Shown here piece after piece: positions 52,489 through 55,259 of a DNA stretch of 64,000 nt (position 1 is the first letter of the stretch; each line of letters opens with the position of its first letter). Source of the DNA: an uncultured Actinomycetes bacterium (GTDB lineage: Bacteria > Actinomycetota > Actinomycetes > Nanopelagicales > Nanopelagicaceae); NCBI GenBank assembly GCA_903822425.1, contig CAIJOY010000032.1, forward strand, positions 1 through 64,000. The letters are read 5' to 3'. The position numbers and the translations under genes are program-made. The notes under the pieces were generated by a model. It had not been told where the DNA came from and did no database searches. It saw only the letters and a list, made by a program, of their open reading frames with translations.

Positions 52489-53337
52489 ATGAATGTAAGA
52501 GAAATTCTAAAACCGGCAAAGGTAAGTCTTCGTGGCGCTGGATTCGAAGAAGTTGACGCAGAACATCTACTTGCGCATCTTCTTGGCATCAGCCGAATGG
52601 AACTGCACAACTCAATTCAGGTAGAGGAAGCACTTACGGCATATAGCGATAGCAAAGAATTGCAAACAGATTACGATCAATTAATTCAGCGTCGATTAGC
52701 TCATGAACCGGTGCAATACATTACTGGTTTGGCTTATTTTGCCGATCTGACATTGCATGTTGGTCCCGGGGTATTGATCCCTCGTCCAGAAACGGAATTG
52801 ATGATTGATCGGATTTTGGTGCACCTTTCCAACTTCACCGAGCCAACGAGTGTGATTGATTTAGGCGCCGGTGCTGGTTCATTAGCTTTGGCAATCGCCA
52901 CACAAGCGCCAATGTCGAGAGTAATTGCTGTGGAAGTGGCGCCAGAGGCTGTTTTTTGGTTGCGTAAAAATATAGAGGCCACTGGGGCAGAAGTACGCGT
53001 TGTTGAAGAAGATGTTGAAAGTGCACTGCCCGGCGTAAAAGCAGATGTCATCATTGCAAATCCACCGTATGTCCCAAGTGGGGAAGTTTTGCCAGCTGAA
53101 GTAAAGGATTACGAACCACACATTGCATTATTTGGTGGGCCAGATGGCATGGATATTCCAAAGCGCTTTTACATCGCTGCCGCCAGGCTCCTTAAATCTG
53201 GTGGTTTATTTGTTACCGAACACGGTGAAGAACAAGGACCAGCTGTGGCGAATGCTTTAGCTTCAGATTTTCATGATGTAGCGTTACATAACGATTTGAC
53301 CGATCGGCCACGTTGGACAACTGCGACAAGGAACTAA
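52489..53337 (+). CDS. prmC: release factor glutamine methyltransferase PrmC
   Basis: A 282-residue SAM-dependent methyltransferase that modifies the Gln of the GGQ motif in RF1 and RF2. The N-terminal helical domain has AEHLLAHLLGISRMEL; the SAM site is VIDLGAGAGSLALAIA, and the catalytic NPPY is in DVIIANPPYVPSGE. It lies 12 bp after prfA. The start has TAGATT only 4 nt before it, too close for the leaderless pattern seen elsewhere. Confidence 0.96.
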   Translation: MNVREILKPAKVSLRGAGFEEVDAEHLLAHLLGISRMELHNSIQVEEALTAYSDSKELQTDYDQLIQRRLAHEPVQYITGLAYFADLTLHVGPGVLIPRPETELMIDRILVHLSNFTEPTSVIDLGAGAGSLALAIATQAPMSRVIAVEVAPEAVFWLRKNIEATGAEVRVVEEDVESALPGVKADVIIANPPYVPSGEVLPAEVKDYEPHIALFGGPDGMDIPKRFYIAAARLLKSGGLFVTEHGEEQGPAVANALASDFHDVALHNDLTDRPRWTTATRN

Positions 53338-53345
53338 CTAAGAAG

Positions 53346-53972
53346 ATGGCAACCACTGTCGAAACTGCACAAAAGTGGATTCAAGACGGATATGTACTTG
53401 TTGCCCCGCTTGAACATGGATATGCCTATCTTGTTGATGCCTTTAATCATGATGGAGTTCGAACAGTCCATGCGATGCGTGGAGACGCACTGGGTGTGAG
53501 CGCACAAGTCCTTCTAGCAAGCACTCGAGCTGCTTCTGGAATTATTCGTGAAATTACTCCTCAAACTCAGGCACTTATGGATGGATGTTGGCCAGGACTT
53601 CTGAGTTTGAATGTTCGACCACAAGTGGGGTTGATGTGGGATCTAGGTGATGATCGCAAACTCGACACAATTTCAGTGCGCGTGCCACGAGCTGAGTTTG
53701 TTCTTAAACTCCTTGCAAAAACTGGACCACTGGCGTGCGCTAGTGCGGCAAAAGTTGGACAGCCTGCGATTTTGAAACTCGAAGATCATGAAAATATCAA
53801 TAATGATATTTTGCGAATATGTGATTTCGGAGAACTCACTGCAGGCCCAGCATCTACGGTGGTTCTCAGTAAGGGCGCCACAATCTCCATGACGCGCGAA
53901 GGAGCTATAGCTTTTGAGCAACTGCAGGCTCTAGTGCCTGAAATCTCACGCTCTAGCTCCGCAATTTCCTAA
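53346..53972 (+). CDS. degenerate TsaC/Sua5 (YrdC-fold) protein
   Basis: A 208-residue protein in the place where actinobacteria encode Sua5 (after prmC). The YrdC-fold pattern is visible: WIQDGYVLVAPLEHGYAYLV at the start, MDGCWPGLLSLNV (as WPGP-L-T), ISVRVPRAEFVLKLL, GPLACASAAKVGQPA and a C-terminal PASTVVLSK with MTREGAI. But the three catalytic-site motifs are changed: PT-D/E-T becomes PLEHG, K-x-R becomes MRGDA, and S-x-N becomes SAA. It may not make threonylcarbamoyl-AMP. ATG at 53346 is chosen; the frame opens 11 codons earlier inside prmC. Confidence 0.72.
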   Translation: MATTVETAQKWIQDGYVLVAPLEHGYAYLVDAFNHDGVRTVHAMRGDALGVSAQVLLASTRAASGIIREITPQTQALMDGCWPGLLSLNVRPQVGLMWDLGDDRKLDTISVRVPRAEFVLKLLAKTGPLACASAAKVGQPAILKLEDHENINNDILRICDFGELTAGPASTVVLSKGATISMTREGAIAFEQLQALVPEISRSSSAIS

Positions 53973-53993: not shown

Positions 53994-55259
53994 ATGTCCG
54001 ATACTCCTTTTTATGGTCCTGATTTCGATCTCTTGGTACGCCAAGATCCAGATGTTGCAGCTGTTGTTCTCTCTGAGTTGCATCGTCAGCAAACAGATTT
54101 GCAATTGATCGCCAGTGAAAACTTCACATCGCGCGCGGTTCTTGCTGCGATGGGATCCACACTTTCCAATAAGTATGCAGAAGGTTATGCCGGCAAGCGC
54201 TACTACGGTGGCTGCGAAGAAGTGGATAAAGTAGAAATCTTGGCAATTGAACGTGCAAAGTCCCTCTTTGGTGCCGAGCATGCAAATGTGCAGCCGCACT
54301 CAGGGGCAACGGCAAATATCGCGGTGTATGCGGCATTCACTAAACCTGGAGATACAGTCCTTGCGATGTCTTTGCCTCATGGTGGGCACCTGACCCATGG
54401 TTCAAAAGTTAACTTTTCTGGAAAATGGTTCAACATCGTTTCCTATGGTGTTCGCCAATCTGATGAACTTATTGATTACGACGAATTACGTGATCTAGCT
54501 ATTGCTAACAAACCCAAGATGATTTGCTCTGGCGCAACCGCCTATCCCAGCTTGATTGATTTTGAAAAAGTTCGCGCGATTTGCGATGAAGTGGGCGCCA
54601 TTATGTGGGTGGATGCTGCCCACTTCGTTGGTCTAGTTGCTGGCAAGGCAATTCCATCTCCAGTGCCATATGCAGATGTTGTTTCTTTCACGACTCACAA
54701 AGTTTTGCGCGGTCCACGCGGGGGAATGATTCTTTCTAAGGCCGAACATGCTGCTGCTATCGATAAAGCAGTCTTTCCGGGCATGCAAGGTGGACCGATT
54801 ATGTCTGCCATTGCTGGCAAAGCCATCGCATTAAAGGAATGCGCAACTCCTGAATATCAACAGTATGCCAAGACTGTGATTTCTAATTGTCAGGTACTTG
54901 CTGGCGCATTAGAAGATGAAGGTATGCGCGCAGTCTCTGGTGGAACTCAAACCCACTTAGCTTTGATTGATATTCGAAATACGAAAATAAATGGCAAAGT
55001 TGCCGACCAACGTTGTGGAGCATCTGGCATTGTTCTTAATAAGAATGCCATCCCATTTGATCCAGAATCTCCGGCAGTGACAAGCGGAATTCGTGTTGGC
55101 TCTGCTGCAATTACAACTCAAGGAATGGGTCCAGATGAAATGAAGAAAATTGCATCCTTTATCTCACGTGCCATTGCAGCTGATGATGAAAAGCAGTGGG
55201 GACAAATTCGTAAGGAAGTTCACGAACTCACCTCTCGGTTTCCCATCTACGCTGCATAA
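53994..55259 (+). CDS. glyA: serine hydroxymethyltransferase
   Basis: A 421-residue PLP enzyme converting serine and tetrahydrofolate to glycine and methylene-THF. The PLP Lys is in VVSFTTHKVLRGPRGGM; LQLIASENFTSRAVLAAMG, SNKYAEGYAGKRYYGG and ANVQPHSGATAN are typical. The gene is inserted between the TsaC-like gene and wecA, where mycobacteria have none. Start supported by a -10 hexamer 7 nt upstream and no Shine-Dalgarno. Confidence 0.97.
   Translation: MSDTPFYGPDFDLLVRQDPDVAAVVLSELHRQQTDLQLIASENFTSRAVLAAMGSTLSNKYAEGYAGKRYYGGCEEVDKVEILAIERAKSLFGAEHANVQPHSGATANIAVYAAFTKPGDTVLAMSLPHGGHLTHGSKVNFSGKWFNIVSYGVRQSDELIDYDELRDLAIANKPKMICSGATAYPSLIDFEKVRAICDEVGAIMWVDAAHFVGLVAGKAIPSPVPYADVVSFTTHKVLRGPRGGMILSKAEHAAAIDKAVFPGMQGGPIMSAIAGKAIALKECATPEYQQYAKTVISNCQVLAGALEDEGMRAVSGGTQTHLALIDIRNTKINGKVADQRCGASGIVLNKNAIPFDPESPAVTSGIRVGSAAITTQGMGPDEMKKIASFISRAIAADDEKQWGQIRKEVHELTSRFPIYAA

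Follow-up and report, generated by a model that had tools for sequence, protein, structure and literature searches.

The TsaC/Sua5 family is nearly universal, and acI bacteria are among the most abundant freshwater bacteria. The window analyzed here, a stretch of 64,000 nucleotides of DNA from an uncultured acI / Nanopelagicales-type actinobacterium, holds a gene at the place of tsaC whose product has exchanged most of the residues used by this family for TC-AMP synthesis. This locus raises two questions: what is the role of the altered protein, and which enzyme performs the TC-AMP step of t6A synthesis in these bacteria?

A TsaC-type protein with an altered active site

The gene (53346..53972, forward strand) encodes a protein of 208 aa, which ORF translation, profile match and structure model identify as a degenerate TsaC-type YrdC-domain protein, pseudo-TsaC. 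Its conserved neighbours on the same strand are prmC upstream (52489..53337) and glyA downstream (53994..55259), and the position beside prmC is that of tsaC in other Actinomycetes. PF01300 is matched along the length of the protein (66.4 bits; gathering score 25.1) and the AlphaFold2 model, confident with a mean pLDDT of 91, displays a standard YrdC domain, which together place pseudo-TsaC in the YrdC-domain superfamily. The model aligns with T. maritima TsaC2 in complex with TC-AMP (VIA-align Z 25.0, rmsd 2.4, 203 residues), and P. abyssi Sua5 is matched by Foldseek with an E value of 3e-17. The YrdC fold pattern and the conserved place after prmC reported in a preliminary description of this DNA are borne out by these results, including the structure prediction it had proposed. 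The score of pseudo-TsaC for the TC-AMP synthase equivalog TIGR00057 is 83.1 bits, under the cut-off of 123.2. Short proteins of relatives score 94.6-100.8 bits, and all tested short proteins (83-101 bits) remain under this cut-off. The chain of pseudo-TsaC ends after the YrdC domain and has no C-terminal SUA5 domain (PF03481), so that it is not a Sua5.

Residues were mapped by alignment to P. abyssi Sua5, in whose numbering the relevant positions are T33, K56, R58, S143, N145, S181 and R195. The KxR and SxN motifs together with T33, S181 and R195 bind ATP and threonine, and TC-AMP synthesis by yeast Sua5 depends on all of them (PMC10321239). In pseudo-TsaC, PLEHG (residues 21-25; 53406..53420, forward strand, as are all following motifs) replaces the PT(D/E)TV threonine/ATP motif, with L22 at the position of T33. 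MRGDA (residues 44-48; 53475..53489) replaces AKGRG, turning KxR into R45-G-D47, with R45 for K56 and D47 for R58. SAA (residues 133-135; 53742..53750) replaces SAN, with S143 kept as S133 and N145 changed to A135. Hence neither the KxR...SxN catalytic tetrad nor the full threonine-binding set T33/S181/R195 is present, even though the equivalents of the two threonine-binding residues S181 and R195 are kept as S170 (53853..53855) and R184 (53895..53897), the latter invariant in all groups compared (roles from PMC10321239). Further YrdC motifs are WPG (82-84), VRVP (111-114), STVV (170-173) and REG (184-186). The preliminary description had correctly read PLEHG, MRGDA and SAA, but its claim that all three motifs are lost was too strong: S133, S170 and R184 are kept and the exchange of lysine for R45 reads as conservative, so that, judged from the alignment, the active site is gone for the most part but not entirely.

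Conservation across the order

Orthologues of pseudo-TsaC are found in 111 of the 112 genomes of the order (acI / Nanopelagicales-type Actinomycetota; genomes at least 90% complete), with relatives in the same genus and the same family. The genomes that keep the short gene are streamlined (about 1.1-2.2 Mb), and its reading frame is intact in nearly all copies. Named loci number 80 and include the complete genomes CP015604, CP015603 and Ca. Planktophila lacus NZ_CP016769; since the scan for these loci used the pattern PLE[HN][GSA]Y, conservation of residues 18-27 is biased in the resulting alignment. The gene is adjoined by prmC at all 80 loci and by glyA at 78, the remaining two loci ending early. 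Canonical TsaC genes in other families also adjoin prmC. Among the acI-type genomes are several (loci L113, L135, L150, L177, L188) that were deposited as Streptomyces griseus or Bifidobacterium breve and are apparently mislabelled, and two genomes carry a second short-type copy each (G070:C29:23488-24069 and G084:C11:39496-40068).

An alignment free of the pattern bias compared 40 short copies with 19 canonical TsaCs from other families and with 28 Sua5s. All canonical TsaCs and Sua5s (100%) have K56, R58 and N145. The short copies have K and R in 0/40, N in 1/40 (G030) and the threonine of T33 in 1/40 (G033). Residues typical of the short copies are E23 (95%), H or N at position 24 (85%), R45 (97%), D47 (75%) and Q54 (85%). 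For 55 close pairs of short copies, the median dN/dS is 0.054 (range 0.02-0.15), which is strong purifying selection. The short protein nevertheless diverges faster than Sua5 in 276/276 genome pairs, with a mean identity of 44% vs 69%. As it is common to the 40 aligned copies and accompanied by such low dN/dS values, the pattern of motif loss is far beyond chance.

An intact Sua5 in genomes of the order

Most genomes of the order carry a second, long PF01300 protein with a C-terminal SUA5 domain (PF03481). In this protein, the motifs PTETVYG, KGRP and SAN are intact, S181 and R195 are present, and the HY loop, SPT and GVE motifs of Sua5 are also found (motif definitions: PMC10321239). The Sua5 of genome G011 scores 182 bits for the TC-AMP synthase equivalog, above the cut-off of 123.2. 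At the level of the order, one option raised in the preliminary description, the existence of another TsaC, is therefore supported by a full Sua5 that coexists with the short gene. A full-length Sua5 match is present in 17/17 single-contig genomes vs 65/95 multi-contig genomes (Fisher p = 0.003), and the 30 of 112 genomes without one are all drafts. The neighbourhoods of sua5 (L086-L097) are variable, with glycosyltransferase, asparagine-synthetase-like and sugar-epimerase-like genes, and are often cut by contig ends, so that sua5 is easily missed in metagenome-assembled genomes; in G005, G014, G022, G027 and G119 the gene itself is cut by contig ends, which marks it as a frequent assembly break point. 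In G025, G026, G031 and G032, all without a full-length Sua5 match, the SIMPL-domain neighbour of sua5 was not found and no assembly gap can be demonstrated at this site. One genome, G123, has two full-length Sua5 copies (G123:C2 and G123:C26).

The window's own genome is a draft of 1.43 Mb in 48 contigs (98% complete). The genes tsaE, tsaB and tsaD, for which the preliminary description had advised a search, lie together on its contig C7, and t6A synthesis thus appears to be retained. The search for a second TsaC that it had likewise proposed yielded the degenerate copy as the sole TsaC/Sua5 in the 48 contigs, with neither a full Sua5 nor a PF03481 domain. In several relatives of the same genus, sua5 is divergent from an adjoining glycosyltransferase gene. 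The orthologue of this glycosyltransferase in the window's own genome lies against the end of contig C25 (4,495 bases), which cuts it down to its last 122 residues; C25 also carries the SIMPL-domain neighbour. Because the neighbouring gene is cut by the contig end, the absence of sua5 was not taken at face value; the gene probably lies just past the end of C25, in an assembly gap. For the alpha/beta hydrolase that adjoins sua5 in G011, the window's own genome gave weak matches only, and the presumed gap is bracketed from one side.

Origin of the two forms

In the tree, the long Sua5s of the order group with those of G037, G040 and G052 (support for the whole clade 76). In G037 and G040, which belong to other families, Sua5 is accompanied by a TsaC with partial changes (L079, L080): SxN reads GxN in G037 and PTDT reads AADS in G040, and these proteins are possible intermediate states. 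G052 has Sua5 together with an intact TsaC. The three states fit an inferred timing in which Sua5 was gained, TsaC was then relaxed and the new state was finally fixed. As the tree is midpoint-rooted, does not gather the short copies in a clean clade and does not settle the deep order, descent of the short protein from TsaC is argued mainly from gene place and shared residues. A third, weak and very divergent PF01300 protein of about 220-258 aa is encoded in G029, G004 and G003 (L073, L074 and L075, respectively); these proteins form their own clade with 100% support and are YciO-like by appearance only. L067 (G034:C32), also a very divergent YrdC-domain protein, has a long branch of its own and joins none of the short, long and YciO-like groups.

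Probable replacement by Sua5 and a probable new role for the old TsaC

Taken together, it is likely that Sua5 took over TC-AMP synthesis and that the old TsaC, still conserved, has acquired a new role as a YrdC protein that probably does not adenylate. Under this model, the ancestral actinobacterial tsaC would still stand at the prfA-prmC-tsaC-glyA place, while the lineage would have gained, and kept elsewhere, a full Sua5 (YrdC plus SUA5 domain), upon which the old TsaC would have stopped acting as TC-AMP synthase. Sua5, which probably performs the t6A step in the order, would use ATP, threonine and bicarbonate to make TC-AMP, which TsaE, TsaB and TsaD would pass on to tRNA. The old TsaC would no longer have K, R and N for ATP/phosphate or the first threonine of PTxT. 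Its fold would have been preserved, as would S170 and R184 on the threonine side, and the well-conserved cleft residues E23, H/N24, R45, D47 and Q54 would be new. Given the charge reversal at R58 and the loss of N145, the short protein is very probably unable to adenylate and hence without TC-AMP activity, although some residual activity might persist, as the change of lysine to arginine is conservative and S133, S170 and R184 remain. From the retained serines and arginine and from the polar residues newly conserved in the short copies, it seems that the cleft was rewritten rather than erased. The favoured reading is thus a binding protein that does not adenylate, whether as a sensor or as a partner of Sua5 or translation factors. 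The rewritten cleft may bind a small carboxylate or an amino-acid-like ligand; alternatively, the short protein might be a sensor or a regulatory subunit docked to Sua5, a translation factor or RNA.

Several other explanations have to be weighed against replacement by Sua5. That the altered motifs result from a frameshift or from an assembly or sequencing artefact is extremely improbable, as the same motifs recur in relatives from many independent assemblies, complete genomes included. A local error or pseudogene was likewise rejected in view of the 80 loci, the median dN/dS and the presence in 111/112 genomes; the preliminary description had named motif-keeping relatives as the sign of such an error, and the absence of K and R from all 40 short copies excludes this. 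The faster evolution relative to Sua5 in every genome pair would be expected of a decaying TsaC relic without important function that is on its way to loss. Nevertheless, the low dN/dS, the intact frame in nearly all copies, the presence in all but one of these streamlined genomes and the conservation of the new residues across genera make such decay very unlikely.

The short protein could also be a remodelled, working TC-AMP synthase, in which R45 serves for the lysine and other residues replace R58, N145 and T33. The intact fold, the conservation of S133, S170 and R184, and the drafts that show the short copy alone would agree with this reading, but the charge at R58 is reversed and N145 is lost, both residues being required in yeast Sua5 (PMC10321239), and all single-contig genomes have an intact Sua5; a working synthase is thus unlikely. 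Membership in a YciO-like group acting in RNA metabolism, rather than descent from TsaC, could be proposed from the shared domain and from YciO being a paralogue that lacks TsaC function in vivo (PMC12506659). Yet most TsaC active-site residues are reportedly kept in YciO (PMC12506659) and not in the short protein, which also occupies the TsaC place and retains WDLGD and GPLA, two stretches characteristic of TsaC in actinobacteria, whereas the weak copies identified as YciO-like by appearance form a separate clade; this origin has little probability. Of the options listed in the preliminary description, the second enzyme is supported at the level of the order by an intact full Sua5, whose coexistence with the short gene makes a different role the likeliest reason why the latter was kept, while the remodelled enzyme is unlikely.

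We lean towards regarding the short protein as an order-wide, neofunctionalised TsaC descendant whose new cleft (E23, H/N24, R45, D47, Q54), with a new ligand or as a regulatory partner of Sua5, would constitute a new functional class in the YrdC superfamily. Streamlined genomes that keep the short gene must gain something from it, and annotating this gene as a TC-AMP synthase from domain and position would probably be wrong. The persistence of both forms throughout the order, with TsaC turned into something else, can be viewed as a natural experiment in which a universal enzyme was replaced and then reused.

Comparison with known systems

In the open-access literature, no paper was found that links Nanopelagicales to threonylcarbamoyl synthesis or describes the acI short protein. 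Coexistence of TsaC and Sua5 is reportedly rare and unstable, with Leotiomyceta fungi and Vibrio named as cases (Pichard-Kostuch et al., PMC10321239); the acI order represents a stable coexistence with a changed TsaC. With the single-domain TsaC of Actinomycetes, the short protein shares fold, length, the place by prmC, WPG, WDLGD, GPLA, S133, S170 and R184, but its PTDT, KxR and SxN motifs are replaced and it falls under the equivalog cut-off. Sua5 / TsaC2, the two-domain TC-AMP synthase, provides the best structural matches (6f89, 9dsq) and has the same YrdC domain (Z about 25), whereas the short protein lacks the SUA5 domain, the interdomain loop and the catalytic residues, and a true Sua5 is found in the same genomes. 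YciO, a PF01300 paralogue, resembles the short protein in being a YrdC protein found alongside a genuine TC-AMP synthase and in having another, putative role (PMC12506659); compared by description, it differs in its reportedly kept active-site residues and in gene place. Finally, the YrdC domains of HypF and TobZ have the same fold (Z 17-20 and 11-12, respectively), but they use carbamoyl phosphate and ATP, keep KxR...SxN (PMC9654439) and are fused to Kae1-like domains.
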